Positions 47,425-62,486 of a DNA stretch of 64,000 bases are shown in pieces. Under the pieces are notes generated by a model. That model searched no databases. It had not been told where the DNA came from and was given only the letters and a program-made list of their open reading frames with translations. The translations under genes were made by a program, and so were the position numbers. Position 1 is the first letter of the stretch, and the number at the start of each line of letters is the position of its first letter. The DNA comes from an uncultured Gammaproteobacteria bacterium (GTDB lineage Bacteria > Pseudomonadota > Gammaproteobacteria > JAADHQ01). The DNA lies in NCBI GenBank assembly GCA_947258655.1, contig CAMYJD010000003.1:62001-126000 (forward strand), in the 5' to 3' direction.

Positions 47425-47501
47425 AAGTCGTAAGTCTTTGGTCTTTGGTCTTTGGTCTTTGGTCTTTGGTTATTCGACTCAAGACTTAAGACTTACGACT
47501 T
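47425..47501. repeat. Inverted repeat enclosing a heptamer array
   Basis: AAGTCGTAAGTCTT (47425-47438) and AAGACTTACGACTT (47488-47501) are perfect inverted copies. Between them lie five tandem GTCTTTG heptamers. It sits between nth and the DUF1841 gene. No T-tract follows, so it is not an ordinary terminator. Confidence 0.85.
47434..47468. repeat. Five tandem GTCTTTG heptamers
   Basis: Five uninterrupted copies of GTCTTTG occupy 47434-47468, overlapping the left arm of the surrounding inverted repeat. Copy number could vary between strains by slippage. Confidence 0.9.
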
Positions 47502-47973: not shown

Positions 47974-48003
47974 TATTAATTTGTGATTTTTCATCCCTAT
48001 AAT

Positions 48004-48033
48004 GAAACTTCCCAGGGCCATTCAAGTCCTATC
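48004..48033 (+). promoter_or_regulatory. Possible ECF-type promoter for the hvf cluster
   Basis: GAAACTT (48004-48010), 16 bases, then TCCTATC resembles the spacing of an ECF sigma promoter (AACTT-N16-TC type). A perfect -10 TATAAT at 47998-48003 just ahead gives a competing sigma70 reading. Neither is decisive. Confidence 0.3.
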
Positions 48034-48146
48034 ACTTAAGGCAAGGCAATGGTTGCGGTGCGGATTAGAACTGCAGCCTGTATGAGCGGCCTGATAAAAA
48101 TTTGAATAGCAAACCAATATAAATTGATCCTTAAGGAGCACAGATT

Positions 48147-48650
48147 ATGGCTAAGAAGTACACACAAAAACCCCTGGCAGCTGCACTGGGCGCGGCATTC
48201 CTGTCCGTCACTGCAAGCTCTGTAGTACAGGCCAATGAAAATCCCTTTGCTGCCAACCAGCTTAGCAGTGGTTACATGCAACTGGCCGCTATGGAAGGCA
48301 AATGTGGTGAAGGCAAATGCGGCGGCATGAAAGCCGAGAAAGCCGAGAAAGCCAAAGAAGGTAAATGCGGTGAAGGCAAATGTGGCGGCATGAAGGGTAA
48401 GGAAGCCAATTGCGGCGGCAAGATGAAAAAAATGGACAAAGACGGTGATGGCAGTGTCAGTCGTGCTGAATTCGACTTCTATCACGCAGCCAAATTCGAA
48501 CGTATGGACAAAAACAAGGATGGCAAGCTGGGAATGTCTGAAATGATGATGAAAAAAGACAAGGAAGGCACATGCGGCGGTATGAAGAAGGGCGCTGAAA
48601 AAGCCAAAGAAGGTAAATGCGGCGAAGGCAAATGCGGTGGCATGAAGTAA
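48147..48650 (+). CDS. hvfA: HvfA-like RiPP metallophore precursor with EF-hand pair
   Basis: 167 residues with RBS AAGGAG eight bases upstream. A Sec signal peptide (cut about Ala29) is followed by cysteine segments: EGKCGEGKCGG at 50-60 and 71-81, NCGG at 88-91, EGTCGG at 140-145 and EGKCGEGKCGG at 155-165, so eight Cys in all (53, 58, 74, 79, 89, 143, 158, 163). EGKCG is the modification motif of HvfA-type peptides, in which an MNIO enzyme turns Cys into oxazolone-thioamide that binds copper. Between the motifs lie two canonical EF-hand loops, DKDGDGSVSRAE (97-108) and DKNKDGKLGMSE (121-132). The EF-hand insertion is the odd point. Maturase, partner and DoxX genes follow directly. Confidence 0.88.
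   Translation: MAKKYTQKPLAAALGAAFLSVTASSVVQANENPFAANQLSSGYMQLAAMEGKCGEGKCGGMKAEKAEKAKEGKCGEGKCGGMKGKEANCGGKMKKMDKDGDGSVSRAEFDFYHAAKFERMDKNKDGKLGMSEMMMKKDKEGTCGGMKKGAEKAKEGKCGEGKCGGMK
48294..48647 (+). repeat. Three coding repeats of the EGKCGEGKCGGMK unit
   Basis: The 39-base unit encoding this 13-residue block occurs at 48294-48332, 48357-48395 and 48609-48647, nearly identical at DNA level. It points to recent duplication of the modification site within the precursor gene. Confidence 0.9.
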
Positions 48651-48663
48651 GGTCTGTGCTCAG

Positions 48664-49521
48664 ATGAATTCAGCACAGTATCCTGTTGAAGGTACCGGCC
48701 TCGGTCTGCGGCGAACCCTGCTGGGTCCGCTGGCCGAGGCCAATCCATCACAAATCGATTTTATGGAAATTGCGCCGGAAAACTGGATCGGCGTCGGTGG
48801 CACGCTGGGTAAACAATTGCGCCATTTCACCGAACGTTATCCGTTTGTCAGCCATGGTCTGTCTCTATCAATAGGCAGCCCGTCACCACTGGATATGGAT
48901 TTTCTGGCAAAGCTCAAAGGTTTCCTGAAAGATCACAATATCAGAACCTATACCGAACACCTCAGTTACTGCAGCGACACAGGCCATCTGTATGACCTAC
49001 TGCCCATCCCGTTTACCGAGGAGGCAGTCAAGTATGTTGCAGAACGTATTCGCATCGTCCAGGACACGCTGGAGCAACGCATAGCAATGGAAAATGTTTC
49101 CTATTATGCCGCCCCGGGACAGGAAATGGCGGAAATTGATTTTATCAATGCCGTACTCGAGGAAGCCGATTGCGACCTGTTACTCGATGTCAATAATATC
49201 TACGTCAACAGCATTAATCACCGTTACGATGCAGAAGCTTATCTCAAGGCACTGCCAGCAGAACGCGTTGTCTATATGCATGTTGCCGGCCATTACCAGG
49301 AAGCGGAAGACCTTATAGTGGACACGCATGGAGCCGATATCATAGATCCGGTATGGCAACTACTCGACAAGACCTACGAACACCTTGGCGCTGTACCTAC
49401 GTTGTTGGAGCGCGACTTTAACATACCCCCTCTGGCCGAGCTGCTGCAGGAGATCGACACGATCTCATCCATGCAGGAAAAATGGAGTCGTCGCAATGCA
49501 CAGCAAAGCGTACAAGGATAA
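48664..49521 (+). CDS. hvfB: DUF692 MNIO-type RiPP maturase (HvfB-like)
   Basis: 285 residues, a TIM-barrel-like DUF692 protein. Candidate metal ligands sit in conserved blocks: SHGLSLSIG (His64), TEHLSY (Glu98, His99), AMENVSYY (Glu143, Asn144), DVNNIYVN (Asp175), HVAGHY (His206, His210), DTHG (Asp220, His222) and LLERDFNIP. Multinuclear non-haem iron oxidases of this family oxidise cysteine in precursor peptides. It starts 13 bases after the precursor gene and overlaps the partner gene by 26 bases. The assignment rests on family and context. Confidence 0.92.
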   Translation: MNSAQYPVEGTGLGLRRTLLGPLAEANPSQIDFMEIAPENWIGVGGTLGKQLRHFTERYPFVSHGLSLSIGSPSPLDMDFLAKLKGFLKDHNIRTYTEHLSYCSDTGHLYDLLPIPFTEEAVKYVAERIRIVQDTLEQRIAMENVSYYAAPGQEMAEIDFINAVLEEADCDLLLDVNNIYVNSINHRYDAEAYLKALPAERVVYMHVAGHYQEAEDLIVDTHGADIIDPVWQLLDKTYEHLGAVPTLLERDFNIPPLAELLQEIDTISSMQEKWSRRNAQQSVQG

Positions 49522-50278
49522 GCAACCCGATTTCATGCGCAAACAATTCGAGTTTGCGGCCCATATACGTAATCCCGACATTAACCGTAAACCCGATGAT
49601 GTTGAAGACCGGCGCATGGGAATCTATCGTGAGCTGTTCTACAACAATGTAGAAGGTTTTATATCCAGCGGCTTTCCGGTGTTGCGCGAACTCTTTGACG
49701 ACAAGACATGGCATACCATGGTCAGGGACTTTTTCTCACGCCATCAATGCAAGACCCCCTATTTTCTTGAAATATCCGAAGAGTTTCTCGACTACCTGGA
49801 GAACGAACGGGACAACAAGGAAGACCCTGCCTTCATCAAGGAACTGGCACACTACGAATGGGTTGAACTGGCGCTGACTGTTGCCGAAGAGCAGATCGAT
49901 GACACGGGCATCGACCCGCAAGGTGACTTTCTGCACAACGTACCTGTCGTCTCTCCACTGGCCTGGTTACTCAACTACCAGTTTGATGTGCAGCATATTG
50001 GTCCGGACTACCAGCCATCGACACCTCCGCAGCATATAACGACATTGATCGTATACCGAAACCGCAACGATGAAATAGGTTTCATGGAAATCAATCCCGT
50101 TACTGCACACATGATACAAAGCCTGCAACTGCACCCTGATCAAACAGGCAAACAATTGCTGGAAAATATCGCTATGGAATTGAACCATTCAGACCCCGAC
50201 ATTGTCATAAATGGTGGAATACAAATAATGAAGCAGTTGCGCGACGCCGATATCCTGCTTGGAGTACGCACAACATAA
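49496..50278 (+). CDS. hvfC: DUF2063 RiPP maturation partner (HvfC-like)
   Basis: 260 residues from the ATG at 49496, which has GGAG eight bases upstream (49484-49487); a longer reading would continue in the maturase gene. The N-terminal DUF2063 domain is recognised by RKQFEFAAHIRNPD, RRMGIYRELFYNNVEGFISSGFPVLRELF and YEWVELAL. In studied systems this partner binds the precursor and presents it to the DUF692 enzyme. It overlaps the maturase gene by 26 bases, indicating coupled synthesis in a complex. Confidence 0.9.
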   Translation: MHSKAYKDKQPDFMRKQFEFAAHIRNPDINRKPDDVEDRRMGIYRELFYNNVEGFISSGFPVLRELFDDKTWHTMVRDFFSRHQCKTPYFLEISEEFLDYLENERDNKEDPAFIKELAHYEWVELALTVAEEQIDDTGIDPQGDFLHNVPVVSPLAWLLNYQFDVQHIGPDYQPSTPPQHITTLIVYRNRNDEIGFMEINPVTAHMIQSLQLHPDQTGKQLLENIAMELNHSDPDIVINGGIQIMKQLRDADILLGVRTT

Positions 50279-50303
50279 CAATAACGGAACAGGAGATCCT
50301 TCT

Positions 50304-50897
50304 ATGTTCATGACTTTGCAAAACCTGCTCGACAAAACTCGCAGTCTGGATTTTCTCGGCCCCCTGGCATTAAGAATTTACCTGTCCCCGATCTTCTTTT
50401 ACGCCGGACTGAACAAGCTATCTGATGTCGAAAGCACAGCATGGTACTTTGGCTCTCTGGGTTTGCCCGCACCCGAGCTGATGGTGTGGCTGGCCGGCTC
50501 TACTGAATTAATAGGTGGCGTGTTGCTAATAGCCGGCCTCGCCGTGCGCTGGATAGCGATACCTCTGATGTTCACAATGGTCGTCGCCGCGGCGAGCGCT
50601 CATTGGGATAACGGCTGGCACGCACTCCCTGACGATACCCTGACCGTTCCGTGGGAATGGAAAAAGGACAAGATAAAGGAAGCTAATATCCGCAAGGAAC
50701 GCGCCAAGGAGATCCTGAAGGAACACAGCAACTATGAGTGGATAACCGAACACGGTTATATCACGATACTGAAAAACGGTATCGAATTTGCGGCGACCTA
50801 CTTTATTATGCTGCTGGTATTGTTTTTTACCGGCGCCGGCAGATATCTCAGTGTCGATTACTGGCTCGCACAGTTCTATAAAAAAGCCCAACACTGA
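50304..50897 (+). CDS. hvfX: DoxX-family membrane protein of the hvf cluster (HvfX-like)
   Basis: 197 residues from the ATG at 50304 with AGGAG eight bases upstream (50291-50295). There are four hydrophobic segments typical of DoxX (about 19-36, 60-78, 83-97, 160-180). Between the third and fourth lies a hydrophilic, Lys/Glu-rich insert of about 50 residues (WDNGWHALPDDTLTVPWEWK through WITEHG) not found in minimal DoxX proteins. DoxX genes accompany DUF692/DUF2063 pairs and are thought to serve redox or copper handling at the membrane. Confidence 0.88.
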   Translation: MFMTLQNLLDKTRSLDFLGPLALRIYLSPIFFYAGLNKLSDVESTAWYFGSLGLPAPELMVWLAGSTELIGGVLLIAGLAVRWIAIPLMFTMVVAAASAHWDNGWHALPDDTLTVPWEWKKDKIKEANIRKERAKEILKEHSNYEWITEHGYITILKNGIEFAATYFIMLLVLFFTGAGRYLSVDYWLAQFYKKAQH

Positions 50898-52989: not shown

Positions 52990-53373
52990 TCAGCGCGGCC
53001 CGAGCAACTCGATCTGATAACCATCAGGATCTTCAACAAACGCGATAATTGTCGTACCTGCATTCATCGGACCGGCATCCCTGATGATCTTGCCACCCTG
53101 CTGACGTATCCTCTCCGTTGCCTGATAGACATCATTGACCTGGATGGCGAGATGGCCGAAACCGCTGCCGATATCATAGCTTCCCACATCCCAGTTATAG
53201 GTCAGTTCAATCACGGAGTTTTCAGATTCGTCCCCATAACCGACAAAGGCCAGGGTAAATTTCCCGTCCGGGTAGTCCTTCTGGCGCAGTAATTTCATGC
53301 CCAGAATTTCGGTGTAGAAGGCAATGGATTTTTCCAGGTTACCTACCCGGATCATCGTATGTAATAAACGCAT
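52990..53373 (-). CDS. gloA: Lactoylglutathione lyase (glyoxalase I)
   Basis: 127 residues. Metal ligands are consistent with His5 (LLHTMIRV), Glu near 56 (VIELTYN), His near 74 (GHLAIQV) and Glu near 122 (QIELLG). It detoxifies methylglyoxal with glutathione. Its start forms a TAATG overlap with the stop of the large GGDEF/EAL gene, an unexpected coupling. Confidence 0.96.
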
Positions 53374-56300
53374 TATCCCCTCGCTATTTCCCCTGATGCC
53401 ACCTCGGACAAGGAGCGTGGCATATCAATATTATAGCCTTGCACATAGTCAATACCAATTTCCTTCAACCGTTCCAGCACTTCCCTGTCTTCGACGAATT
53501 CGGCTATGGTTTTAATGCCCATCAAATGACCAATGCGATTAATCGAAGCCACCATGGCATAGTCGACCGGATCATTATCGATGTTATGCACGAAACTGCC
53601 ATCGATCTTGAGGAAATCGACATCAAGGTTTTTCAGGTACGCAAATGAACTCAAGCCACTGCCAAAATCATCGAGGGCAAACTTGCATCCTAGCTCATGC
53701 AAATGCGCAATAAATATTCTCGCACTATCAAGATTAGCGACGGCGGCCGTCTCGGTAATCTCAAAACAGATCAATGAAGGATCGATACCATATTCGTGCA
53801 TACAATCGATGATAAATTGAAGCATTTTGTCATCACCTACCGACTGACCCGACAGATTGATTGTATAGTGCTGTTGTTCGGCACCAGTCAGGCCGTGTAA
53901 CCAGGAAAATACATCACGGATGACCCAACGGTCTATATCCGTCATCAGATGATAGCGTTCGGCTGCGGGAATAAACGCGCCAGGCAGAACGATATCACCA
54001 TTCTCATCCAGCATCCTAATCAGGATTTCCGCATAAGGCTCGTCTTCACATTGCAAGGGCTGCATTGATTGACAGTAACTGACAAAACGATCTTCTTTCA
54101 AAGCCTGCTGGATACGATTGACCCATTGCATCTCGCTTTTATGTTTGACCAGATCGGTATCACCATGCTGGTATTTATGGATGCGGTTACGGCCCAGGTC
54201 CTTGGCGACATAACAGGCCGCATCCGCTTCACTGAGTAATTCGGTCACACTGGCGCTGTCCTTGTCGATCGGTACCATGCCGATACTGACACCGAGCTCA
54301 AAGGTCTTGTCCTCCCAGGTGAAGCGAAATCCCTTCACGGTCTTGCGAATTTTCTCGACAATAGTTTCCGCCTTGTCCAGCGAACAACCCTCGAGCAACA
54401 ACCCGAACTCGTCACCTCCCAGGCGGGCAAATATATCATTATCACGCACATCGGAAACAAGCACCTGTGACAACTGTTTCAACAATCTGTCGCCGGCGAT
54501 ATGACCGCAGGTATCGTTGACAATCTTGAATTGGTCGAGATCCATATAACAGAGGGTATGCTGCCTGTCTGTTTTGCGGCAGCGTTCCAGGGCCTGACTC
54601 AACTGGCGATCGAATTCACGCCGGTTGATCAGGCCGGTCAGTGCATCATGTGAGGCCTGATAGCTTAGCTGCTGCGCCATTTTCCACATTTCCGAGACAT
54701 CATGCATGACCATAACGACTCCCTGGATAGAGCCCTGCGGGTCACGCATGGGTGAGACCGTCAGCTTGACGGCGAAACGGGTGCCGTCGCTACGTGTCGC
54801 ATGCACATGTTCGTTATAGACAAAAACCTGTTCCTCCTCGAGACACATGGATACCGGATTCTCCAGCGGAACCTGGGTCGCAGCATCGGAAAAATGCAAT
54901 AGACTGCTCAACTGTCTTTTTATCGCGCTATCGCTGGAACACCCGACCATTTGCTCGGCATAGGGATTCAGATATTCAATATTACCCTCTACATCCATGG
55001 TTACCACACCATCACCGATGGACTGCAGGGTAATATGCGCACGCTCCTTTTCCTTGAACAATTGCGCCTCGGCATTCTTTAATTCAGTGATATCCCGCGT
55101 TACCCCTTCAACACCATCGATATTGCCATCCTTGTCATAATGAAAATGCGCACTGGTTGATACCCAGATAACATGCCCTTGCTTGTGCCACATGGCTGAC
55201 TGGTAATTTTGCACCTCACCACCATTCTCCCTGAGTGCCTGCAGGAACTTCTCCCGACCTCCCGGTTCAACATACAGACCGGCAAGGTCGACGCCGACAC
55301 CGTTCTCCGGTGTATATCCGAGCATATTGGTAATCGATTTTGATACACTAACCACCATACCATCCGCGTTGGTGCGGTAATATGTATCCTGCATGCTATC
55401 GAGAATGGCACGCAGTTCCCGCTCTGACTTTCTCAGTTTTTGCTCGTTGACTATACGCTCGGTGATATCATGCAATGACAGTACTGCACCTACGTCAGTA
55501 CTGTTATTATTAACAATGGCCTGCCCACTGACCAGCAGGTGACGATATCCATCTTCACGTTTGATGACCATCTCGTTATCCATAATTGCCTGGCCGTTTA
55601 GCACCTGCGCGAAGGGGCTGTCGTCAAAGCAGAGTGGTGTATGACCATCACCCTTGAAGATATCGAACAACTCAGGCCATTGCTTGCCCTTGATATCTGT
55701 AGCACCCAGGCCACAGATCGTCCGCATGGCCTGATTGAAGTGCGTTATCTTTCCTTCCTTGTTGCAGGCAACGACACCGTCTGAAATATTGTCCAGTAGG
55801 GTGTGCAGCAAATTCCTCTCACTCTGCAGGGAGCGCTCCAGAATCGCACTCTCCTGTACTTTCCTTTCCAGATCCTGCTTCCCCGTTAGTATTCGCCGGT
55901 TAAGGAAAACGGTATGCAACATAAACAATACCATCAGAACCAGCATTGCGCTGAGCAGCAGGATCCATATCAGATAATTTTTCACAAACAGATTGAAGGC
56001 AAAAACCGGAGCGTCCTTGTATGCGCCGACCTGTAGTTGCTGCATCAGGGCATGAACGGGCTGATAATCACTGGACGGCTTCCAGCCGGTAATGCGTATT
56101 CGCCCGGAACGAATAATATCATCAGGCATCTCCAGTAAGGTCTGACTCACCGTATTAACGAGATTCTGGCTAGTATTGGTGAGATAAGCTATAGGCCACT
56201 CAGGATAAAGCTCTGTACTTAACATGAATGGGAAATCCGGCCTGCTCTGTGCATTCAGTATCCTGAACTCTTTCAGGTCCACCAGGCCCTTGTCAGCCAT

Positions 56301-56975
56301 GGCTTCGAGTATGCCGGTGCGCACGGTACCTGCATCGACAAGTCCATTGCGCACCGCAACAACCACGGCACTCTGCGGGAAACCACTGAATTGTAATTCA
56401 CCGAATTCGGTAAAGGGATCGATACTGTTATTCTTGAATTCCCTCCAGGCCAGCTGAAAACCTCCAAAGGCCCCGGGCTTGACACCCATGAAGGATCGCG
56501 ATTTCAGATCGGCCAGCGAGTTGATGTCCAGCCTGTCTGCACGGGTGAATATCACTGCACCGAAAGCATGCAGATCATGGCCATCATATTGCTTTTTCAT
56601 TGTGGCCAGCGAACGCACATTAAACCTGTTTTCCAGGTCGATAAAATTACCCGGATTGGTCAGTAAAAAATCGATTTTCTGCTTTGCCACCGCCTCGCGT
56701 GTCTCGGCTATATTCAATGGCATGATATGAAAGTGATAATCGCGGACCTTGCCAGTCAGGTAATTGGCCAGCGGAGTCCAGGTCTTGAATGCTTCGGCGC
56801 TGCCACGATGGGCCAGCACACCGATGGTGACGGCTTTTTCATCATCTGCCTTGTGCACAATATTCGCTTCGGCCCTTGCCGAATGCGAGAATAACGAAGC
56901 GAGCAACAATAGCAGGATCGGAATTAAATTCCGGCATGTACGTAAGAGGACAAAAATAGGATTCTCAGCAGGCAT
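53373..56975 (-). CDS. PhnD-like/PAS/GGDEF/EAL signalling protein
   Basis: 1200 residues. A signal/anchor (about 15-33) precedes a periplasmic PhnD/phosphonate-type binding domain (about 47-310: [34 protein letters not shown]). One membrane helix (about 330-352) leads to three PAS/PAC units (about 385-760), a GGDEF domain (I-site RDND five residues before GGDEF) and an EAL domain. EAL residues are intact: [30 protein letters not shown] and AEFVED. It probably senses a small molecule in the periplasm and adjusts cyclic di-GMP in either direction. It is coupled to gloA. Confidence 0.9.
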
Positions 56976-59351: not shown

Positions 59352-62300
59352 TCAGGCTTTTTGCTTGCGTTTGCTGCGGCGCAGGCGTGACAATAAGCGG
59401 CGCGCCATTTCCCCGAACATCTCGGTCTGGGTCGGATGCGGATGGATGGCCTGGGCGACCTGCTCGAGCGTCATGTCCGCCGATACCATCATGACCCCTT
59501 CACCGATCAGCGTATCGGCATGGTCGGCGAGGTAATGCACACCGACAATGCGATGTGTGGCCTTATCGGCCACAATCTTGATCATGCCATGAATTTCATT
59601 GGTAATCATAGCCTTGGCATCAATACTCATCGGCATTTTAACCTCGACCGCATCGATACCCTTGGCCTTGGCCTGCTCAACCGACAGCCCGACGAAGGCT
59701 GCCTCGGGGCGGGTAAAGATGACGCCACTGTCCTTGTCCTGGTCATAGCGCATGTCTTCGCCCAGGATCGTGGCCGCAGCCACCCGGCCCTGCTGGCCTG
59801 CCGTGTGCGCCAGCATCAGCCCGCCGATCACATCACCCACAGCAAAAACATGGGAAATATTACTGCGACCACGTGCGTCGACACTGATAACGCCCTTATC
59901 GCTGGCGATCCCGGCCTTGTCCAGCTGCAGCGGCTCAAGCACGGGGCGTTTACCCGTCGCCATGACGACATAATCGCAACTGAAGGTATGGTCCTTGCCA
60001 TCCTCACCGCTGTAGACCAGCTTCATCGCCCCCGGCTCACCCTTGATGGATTTGACCTGGACCGATGTCAGGATATTCAGGTTCGGATCTTCATTCAGTA
60101 CCGCGGTCAGGTGCTTGGCTATCTCAGGCTCAACCTCGGCCAGAATCCTGTCCTGTCCTTCCAGTAACGTCACCTTGCTGCCGAAGTCCTGGAAAATCTG
60201 CGCCATTTCCATACCGATCGCACCACCACCGATGACGCCGAGGCGTTTGGGTACGCCTTGCAGACCCCAGACCGTATCCGACGTCAATACACCACCCTTG
60301 TCGAGTGCTTCATGGGCACCGGGAATCGGTGGCACGAATGGTGGTGCACCGGTGGCAATCACGGCACAACCGAAACGGATACGCTCCCCTGCCGTGCCAT
60401 CACCGAGCGGCGCACGTTGATGCGGATTGTCGTTATTCGCCGACGTATCGACGAACAGGGTATGATCATCCTCGAAGCGAGCAAAGCCCTGGATCACCTT
60501 GATCTTGACACCCTTGTCGGTCTTCAAGGCCATATCGCCACGTGTTTCGAGAACATGCCGGCGTGTCTGCTCCAGTTTGTCCCAGTTCAGTTTGGCCTTG
60601 TTAGTCCCTTCGACACCCAGATGTTCATCATGGGCACGGTCACGCATACGGTCTGCCGCAGCGCGCCAGGCCTTCGATGGTATACAGCCACGCCACAGAC
60701 ATTCGCCGCCCGGGAATGGACTATCGTTGACCATCGCGACCTTGATACCGTGCTCGGCCAGATCGCGTGCACAATCTTCTCCACCGGGTCCGCCACCGAT
60801 AACGACAACGTCATAGTCCCAGTCACCTTCCGGAATCGCCGGCCCGACTGGCCCCATCCATGATTCCGGTTGTTCGATCAGACCCTTCAGTGTATTCAGA
60901 TAGAGTGCGACCTCGGCACCGTTGACGACGCGATGATCCGCGGTCACAGTCAACGGCATACCAGCGGGGCCGGCCGATGATATCGCCAATATTGCCGCGG
61001 TACCCGGGGTCGGTATCGCATCAAAATAACTGACCCCCAACATACCCATATTGGAAACCATAAAGGTCGGATTGGCATATTCCTCGGGTGCCAGGCGGCG
61101 TTTACGCGCACGATCCAGAAGGCCTTTCCATTCCTCATTGAGGGATTCGAGGCTGCTGGATTCACAGGCACGCAGGACCGGCACCACGAGGCCGCCACCG
61201 TCTGCAGATACGGCCATGCCGATATCAACCTGACTGCGTTCAACCAGTTTGTCGACCGGCTGGTAACACCAGTTCATGGTCGGATGTTGTTGCATCGCCA
61301 GGGCACAGGCCTTGGCAATTGTAACTGTGACCGAAACGCCCTTCTGCTTCGAGGCCTTTATCAGTGCATCGGGTTTTGCATCGACCGTAACGTGGAACGT
61401 CGGCATGCTCAGCGATGAAGTCATCGACTGACTGATCGCGCGTTCCATTGCATTCATGGCTCGGCCTTCACCCGGCACGTCCACCTGCATCACACCGGCA
61501 GCAGCGGCCGCCGGTGCAGCCGCCTGGCTTGATGCCACGTCGGTAGAGGTAATCACGCCACCCGGACCACTGCCGTGCATGCTATTAAGATCGATACCGC
61601 TCTGACCGGCCAGTTTGCGTGCATACGGTGTTGCCTGTTTGCTGTGTGGGCGCGGGGCCGGTGCAGCTTTACCTGCGGCCTGGATGACATGACTGGCACT
61701 TGTGGCAGCGACAGGCTCTGCGGCAACGGGAGGCTTTTCCCCGGTGCCGGCAGCAGCGGCCTGGACGACGGCGCTTTCGCGCACGACCTTATCCGCGTCT
61801 TCGACCAGATAGGCCATTGCTCCACCGACAGCGACGACGCTGTCAACTTCCGCTATCGGGCCTGACAGATAACCATCACGAAACACCTCGACATCCATGA
61901 TCGCCTTGTCGGTCTCGACCTGGGCAACGACGTCACCACGTTCTATCTTGTCACCGGGAGCCTTCGTCCATTCAACTACAATCCCCTCGGTCATGGTGTC
62001 CGACAACTGCGGCATCTTGATTGTGTAAATACTGCCTTCCGGTTCGGCTGCTGCTGGTGTGGGTGCCTGCTGCTCGCCTGTGCTTTCCGTCGTCTCTGCC
62101 ACGTCAGCTTGCGGTGCTCGTTCGGCTACCGCTGCTGTAGCGCCTGCCTCACCCTGCTGGACTTCATCTGCAGAAGCGACGATATAGGCAATCGCGTCCC
62201 CTACAGCAACAGTACTGTCAACGGCCGCAATCGGTCCGGACAAATAACCTTCGCGGAATACCTCGACGTCCATAATCGCCTTGTCGGTCTCAACCGTTGC

Positions 62301-62414
62301 AACGATATCACCGCGTTCAAGCTTGTCGCCGACATTTTTTTCCCAACTGACGATAACACCTTCGGTCATCGTATCTGACAGTTGCGGCATTTTAATTACA
62401 TAGGGCTCTGACAT
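59352..62414 (-). CDS. Fused pyruvate dehydrogenase E2-E3 (acetyltransferase and dihydrolipoyl dehydrogenase)
   Basis: About 1020 residues from the ATG at 62414 (GGA five bases before); a ten-residue longer start would lie in a repeat. There are two lipoyl domains with lipoyl lysines at 45 and 170 in VETDKAIMD, Ala/Pro linkers, an E3/E1-binding domain near 265-300 (TPYARKLAGQSGIDL), and the E2 catalytic domain (TADHRVVNGAE, with Asn where DHRxxDG has Asp). Directly joined is a complete E3: FAD site VVIGGGPGG, redox pair GGECLWRGCIPSK, NAD site GVIGGGAIGMEMAQIF and HPHPTQTE. It follows pdhB by 72 bases. Confidence 0.95.
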   Translation of the reverse strand: MSEPYVIKMPQLSDTMTEGVIVSWEKNVGDKLERGDIVATVETDKAIMDVEVFREGYLSGPIAAVDSTVAVGDAIAYIVASADEVQQGEAGATAAVAERAPQADVAETTESTGEQQAPTPAAAEPEGSIYTIKMPQLSDTMTEGIVVEWTKAPGDKIERGDVVAQVETDKAIMDVEVFRDGYLSGPIAEVDSVVAVGGAMAYLVEDADKVVRESAVVQAAAAGTGEKPPVAAEPVAATSASHVIQAAGKAAPAPRPHSKQATPYARKLAGQSGIDLNSMHGSGPGGVITSTDVASSQAAAPAAAAAGVMQVDVPGEGRAMNAMERAISQSMTSSLSMPTFHVTVDAKPDALIKASKQKGVSVTVTIAKACALAMQQHPTMNWCYQPVDKLVERSQVDIGMAVSADGGGLVVPVLRACESSSLESLNEEWKGLLDRARKRRLAPEEYANPTFMVSNMGMLGVSYFDAIPTPGTAAILAISSAGPAGMPLTVTADHRVVNGAEVALYLNTLKGLIEQPESWMGPVGPAIPEGDWDYDVVVIGGGPGGEDCARDLAEHGIKVAMVNDSPFPGGECLWRGCIPSKAWRAAADRMRDRAHDEHLGVEGTNKAKLNWDKLEQTRRHVLETRGDMALKTDKGVKIKVIQGFARFEDDHTLFVDTSANNDNPHQRAPLGDGTAGERIRFGCAVIATGAPPFVPPIPGAHEALDKGGVLTSDTVWGLQGVPKRLGVIGGGAIGMEMAQIFQDFGSKVTLLEGQDRILAEVEPEIAKHLTAVLNEDPNLNILTSVQVKSIKGEPGAMKLVYSGEDGKDHTFSCDYVVMATGKRPVLEPLQLDKAGIASDKGVISVDARGRSNISHVFAVGDVIGGLMLAHTAGQQGRVAAATILGEDMRYDQDKDSGVIFTRPEAAFVGLSVEQAKAKGIDAVEVKMPMSIDAKAMITNEIHGMIKIVADKATHRIVGVHYLADHADTLIGEGVMMVSADMTLEQVAQAIHPHPTQTEMFGEMARRLLSRLRRSKRKQKA

Positions 62415-62427
62415 AATAATCCAGTAT

Positions 62428-62441
62428 CGAGTAGCTAGTAA
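62428..62441. repeat. Dispersed word CGAGTAGCTAGTAA
   Basis: The 14 bases at 62428-62441 equal those at 51054-51067. The similarity continues loosely into AAG and nearby GGCGAG. It lies in the gap between pdhB and the E2-E3 gene. Confidence 0.6.
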
Positions 62442-62486
62442 CAAGTGGCGAGGCGATGGACATAATCCATACCTCGCCAGCAGATT

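Follow-up and report, generated by a model that had tools for sequence, protein, structure and literature searches.

A probable Hvf-type captophorin operon in an uncultured gammaproteobacterium encodes a precursor with an internal EF-hand pair

Within the 64,000-nucleotide stretch of an uncultured gammaproteobacterium analysed here, which we refer to as the window, four consecutive genes lie on the forward strand: an hvfA-like captophorin precursor gene (48147-48650; 167 aa, 8 Cys), hvfB for an MNIO (DUF692) maturase (48664-49521; 285 aa), hvfC for an RRE-type partner protein combining DUF2063 with a C-terminal domain (49496-50278; 260 aa) and hvfX for a DoxX-family membrane protein (50304-50897; 197 aa). 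The open reading frames confirmed the gene positions and spacings given in a preliminary description of this DNA, with a gap of 13 bases, an overlap of 26 and a gap of 25, and a ribosome-binding site, AAGGAG (48133-48138, forward strand), is located 8 nt 5' of the precursor ATG. Pfam recovered MbnB_TglH_ChrH on the MNIO (2.4e-107), DUF2063 plus NGO1945_C on the partner and DoxX on the membrane protein, and all three proteins passed the NCBIfam equivalog cut-offs for HvfB (453 bits against 360), HvfC (322 against 142) and HvfX (199 against 80). The MNIO further matched 3BWW at 4e-77 and the partner 3DEE at 7.8e-13. These curated family scores, together with the conserved metal ligands and synteny described below, bear out the earlier assignment of the locus as Hvf-type. 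A bufferin (Buf1/Buf2) identity was considered and rejected, with BufB scoring 273.7 bits against a cut-off of 310 and no match to DUF2282.

The precursor begins with a signal-peptide-like N terminus, recognized by inspection (residues 1-29, ending in VVQA; 48147-48233, forward strand) and followed by a conserved NPF....LSSGYM segment; this N terminus is kept in the four genus members and in most relatives of the class. Six exact EGKCG codon patterns occur in the window, every one inside the precursor gene, against 0.01 expected from shuffling, which rules out chance as their source, and two more cysteines, in EANCG and EGTCG, bring the total to eight. The motifs fall into an N-terminal copper arm (residues 50-92; 48294-48422, forward strand) with four EGKCG and EANCG, amounting to five cysteines, and a C-terminal copper arm (residues 140-167; 48564-48647, forward strand) with EGTCG and two EGKCG, amounting to three. 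Paired EGKCGEGKCGG cassettes recur along the protein at irregular spacing, the observation that bears on the absence of 17-residue EGKCG repeats expected of EGKCG/EF-hand chimaeras. The NCBIfam domain KCGExKCG_twice was passed at 41.8 bits against 19.5; since the HvfA equivalog NF050188 scored 48.1 bits, below its cut-off of 95, we would not, on this profile evidence, file the precursor as HvfA proper.

Between the two arms, at residues about 93-136, Pfam detected an EF-hand pair (EF-hand_5, 2.3e-8, over cut-off). The preliminary description of a Cys-rich precursor with EGKCG motifs was accurate as to the motifs and overlooked this canonical pair. Loop 1 (residues 97-108, DKDGDGSVSRAE; 48435-48470, forward strand), which lies in the EF-hand_5 match, has the canonical ligands at loop positions 1, 3, 5 and 12, and loop 2 (residues 121-132, DKNKDGKLGMSE; 48507-48542, forward strand) likewise has canonical ligands and is modelled at pLDDT 80-91. 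The protein is thus an EGKCG precursor with two EF-hands, the combination that marks an EF-hand chimaera. AlphaFold returned a confident fold only at residues about 90-139, with pLDDT 80-91 over most of this segment and helices at 89-96, 106-120 and 130-139; both copper arms were modelled as disordered (pLDDT about 40), the N-terminal one up to residue 89. A fold search with the full precursor model returned mostly EF-hand proteins, none of them significant (best E 0.16), because most of the model is disordered.

The two loops of this compact pair are separated by a linker of 12 residues (109-120), in keeping with the lanmodulin hallmark of EF loops 12-13 residues apart; a 12-residue spacing has been given as such a hallmark (PMC10232371). 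The EF core aligns ungapped over both hands to the lanmodulin-type PDB chains 8fns and 6mi5, whereas the calmodulin matches listed for it mostly cover one hand. Lanmodulin, however, has four EF-hands and at least one Pro at position 2, while the precursor has two hands with Lys at position 2 in both, Ca2+-type loops and EGKCG arms. With two hands, no Pro at position 2 and an NCBIfam LanM score of 23.4 bits against a cut-off of 135, a lanmodulin identity was ruled out.

With HvfA/oxazolin of H. influenzae the locus shares the HvfB, HvfC and HvfX equivalogs and the EGKCG repeats, differing in the inserted EF pair and in missing the HvfA equivalog cut-off. An EGKCG precursor, an MNIO with a DUF2063 partner and an expected -4 Da per Cys are likewise common to fontiphorin, gonophorin and bulbicupramide (PMC12668002, PMC12538549), for which, unlike the precursor here, EF-hands have not been reported. 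EGKCG/EF-hand chimaeras have already been published (PMC12452194; Microb Genom 2025), and these share with our locus the signal-type N terminus, EGKCG, two EF-hands and genes for an MNIO, a DUF2063 protein and a DoxX protein. Their EF-hands are worded as C-terminal to a short EGKCG domain, whereas here EGTCG and two EGKCG follow the EF pair, although that wording is perhaps no strict definition. The earlier proposal of a new subtype had been given no basis; the real departure lies in the EF-hand pair, and such chimaeras have been described (PMC12452194). The operon is genuine and conserved and belongs to a known system, with a precursor of a chimaera type already on record; what has been little described is an EF hub placed inside the precursor and flanked by copper arms. 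Neither this both-sides layout nor repeated changes of EF state were found in the article texts searched.

In the maturase, metal-ligand and recognition positions are conserved across 184 aligned homologues: each His, Glu, Asp or Asn examined is retained, with the exception of the variable H186, and so is D251, which has been put forward as the base. R16, R17, D251 and F252 are as in the Lys-Cys enzyme class, and R16, R17 and F252 fit the published specificity class. Alignment to 3BWW also located N178, D220 and H222, which, by a transfer of numbering through that structure, are the likely counterparts of the site-3 residues that HvfB of H. influenzae has been shown to require (PMC13419390). 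The oxazolone-thioamide product named in the preliminary description has been superseded: HMBC data recorded after alkylation of the peptides led to a new assignment of the product of H. influenzae, a "captophorin", as 5-thiooxazole (PMC12668002), and a 2026 preprint on HvfB from the Rosenzweig group likewise uses 5-thiooxazole (PMC13419390). The mass shift of -4 Da per Cys put forward alongside it is unchanged under the revised structure.

Two further MNIO loci were recovered in the same genome. The first (L002; G000:C2, about 150994-151779, minus strand) combines a Buf2-like (Cys-Lys) precursor of 84 aa in which CK motifs are repeated, an MNIO with Ala at the second Arg position and Asp at the Phe position, and a DUF2063 partner. 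The second (L003; G000:C8, about 66079-66852, minus strand) combines a DUF2282 (Buf1) precursor, an MNIO with Ser and Asn at these respective positions, and a partner-like open reading frame, alongside a divergent gene for an ECF sigma factor. The specificity residues at both loci fit the published class rule (PMC12668002), and this one genome therefore holds EGKCG, Cys-Lys and DUF2282 precursor types.

Upstream of the precursor gene, conservation pointed to a candidate promoter block (47998-48031, forward strand) consisting of TATAAT (47998-48003), GAAACTT (48004-48010), a 15-nt spacer and GTCCTA (48026-48031). In each of the four species of the genus, the block, TATAATGAAACTT-N15-GTCCTA, precedes hvfA at the same place; one species carries the variants TATACTGAACTTT and GTCCGA, and the 15-nt spacer is invariant. 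The block could be a sigma-70 or ECF-type promoter; because the pattern showed no genome-wide enrichment over a reversed-pattern control, we retain it as a candidate only and assign no regulator. A promoter shared with the Buf1 and Buf2 loci was rejected, GAAACTT-N15-GTCCTA not being seen upstream of either, and searches for known RNA elements around the operon gave chance matches only, far under gathering scores. Two short elements were observed in passing: a GAACTTT...GTCTTA element between polA and engB, conserved in three genomes of the genus (L303, L297, L290), an interval that harbours the Spot 42 RNA in E. coli, and a short tandem run of GTCTTTG-like units directly 3' of nth (window 47438-47474).

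The order to which the organism belongs comprises one genus with four species (the window species, G001, G002 and G003), all of which retain the gene order rnfC-D-G-E, nth, DUF1841, hvfABCX and, in opposite orientation, glnS. The EF pair is present in the window species and G003, and the precursors of G001 and G002 are plain EGKCG; since both of these sister species have retained the operon with no EF-hand in it, the basic system can do without the pair. In an unbiased survey of the class, a close HvfB was found in 119 of 369 genomes, an adjacent EGKCG-type precursor at 84 of the 122 loci examined, and the EF pair in seven of those 84. EGKCG motifs flank the pair on both sides in six of these seven MNIO-linked precursors, the seventh (L274) having a C-terminal EF pair, and in none of the seven are the two EF-hands separated by an EGKCG motif. 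A scan seeded partly on MEGKCGE yielded 24 further EF-type loci; as it is biased to C-terminal tails, these were left out of the six-of-seven proportion. The 31 EF-type loci (among them L072, a second copy of L005) rule out a pair unique to the source organism. Four EF-type EGKCG precursors (L174, L175, L176 and L182) have no local MNIO and sit away from any HvfB in their own genomes; they are possible donors of the EF module.

When the EF label was mapped on a quick HvfB tree of 146 rows, at least nine changes were counted, six of them forced by well-supported branches; the EF state also changes within the four-species genus. The tree contains one large EF cluster, mostly Lysobacteraceae, and the window genus, L069, L074, L077 and the f133 pair are dispersed among EF-less enzymes. 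Because the EF cores share one pattern, E-F-x-x-x-H...F...D, the module looks homologous by sequence, and we infer transfer, recombination or loss behind its patchy distribution. All four genes are under purifying selection (dN/dS 0.04-0.11 against the nearest species), and so is every segment of the precursor: in the comparison with G003 the N-terminal arm has 0.08, the EF pair 0.12 and the C-terminal arm 0.10, values that are rough given such short segments.

The gene identities, active-site residues, synteny, selection and domain layout established here describe what is, with high probability, an Hvf-type (EGKCG, Lys-Cys class) captophorin operon whose EF-hand chimaera precursor would become a periplasmic Cu(I)-sequestering thiooxazole peptide with a Ca2+-structured hub. 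By analogy with characterised homologues, from which the chemistry, copper binding and export of the product are taken, HvfC would bind the precursor, and the multi-iron oxidase HvfB would turn the EGKCG-motif cysteines, of which six are canonical and up to eight may react, into 5-thiooxazoles, with a shift of -4 Da for each. Delivered to the periplasm via Sec, the product would then sequester Cu(I). The claim that the organism exports a peptide thus stands for delivery to the periplasm, which the Sec-type signal sequence backs; release outside the cell goes beyond that evidence. Sequence and model together predict Ca2+ binding by the EF pair, which would fold into a small hub with a disordered copper-binding arm extending on either side. 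Weighing against the overall reading are the missed HvfA equivalog cut-off, a fold search whose matches fell short of significance and the two EF-less sister species. A bolder version makes the product a calcium-gated copper metallophore, in which Ca2+ folds the lanmodulin-spaced pair, joins the thiooxazole arms and sets copper affinity or oligomer state, with EGKCG captophorin lineages having repeatedly taken up or dropped the module. We consider this version unlikely, and put forward calcium control of copper binding as a hypothesis, not a result.

Alternatives to a copper-sequestering captophorin differ in what they make primary. Were the EF pair itself primary, the product would be an EfhP-like protein that senses or buffers Ca2+ in the periplasm, with thiooxazole arms serving another metal or anchoring; the canonical Ca2+ loops suit such a role, no second EF-hand_5 pair was found in the source genome, and Ca2+ homeostasis or signalling has been raised for EGKCG/EF-hand chimaeras (PMC12452194). 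The dedicated maturase, partner and DoxX genes are nevertheless kept, the EGKCG N-terminal arm is under tighter conservation than the EF region, and sister species retain the operon without the pair; we find this role very unlikely. It is also quite improbable that the same biosynthesis serves a physiological metal other than copper, such as gold or zinc, or a mixed role in metal stress. Related operons have also been named gig, for their induction by gold (PMC12452194, PMC5413113), but Cu(I) is what those EGKCG products bind that have been characterised (PMC12668002). Least credible is a secreted, methanobactin-like chalkophore for copper uptake. MNIO chemistry and a copper-binding Cys modification would be common to both, but the MbnB equivalog reached 45 bits against a cut-off of 325, which rules out a methanobactin identity, the operon contains no TonB receptor or exporter, and 5TO pathways are reported as induced by metal excess, not scarcity (PMC12668002).

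Captophorins are widespread. For the cellular role of EGKCG products and of EF-hand chimaeras, the genus offers a natural experiment, with the operon at one place in four species and the EF pair in two and absent in two; matched maturases acting on precursors with and without EF-hands would allow a direct comparison for calcium tuning of copper binding. Elsewhere in the window, two large minus-strand genes were observed: one (53373-56975) encodes a 1200-aa protein with a phosphonate-binding-type periplasmic domain, PAS domains, GGDEF and EAL, and the other (59352-62444) a 1030-aa E2-E3 fusion with lipoyl, 2-oxoacid acyltransferase and dihydrolipoamide-dehydrogenase-type domains.
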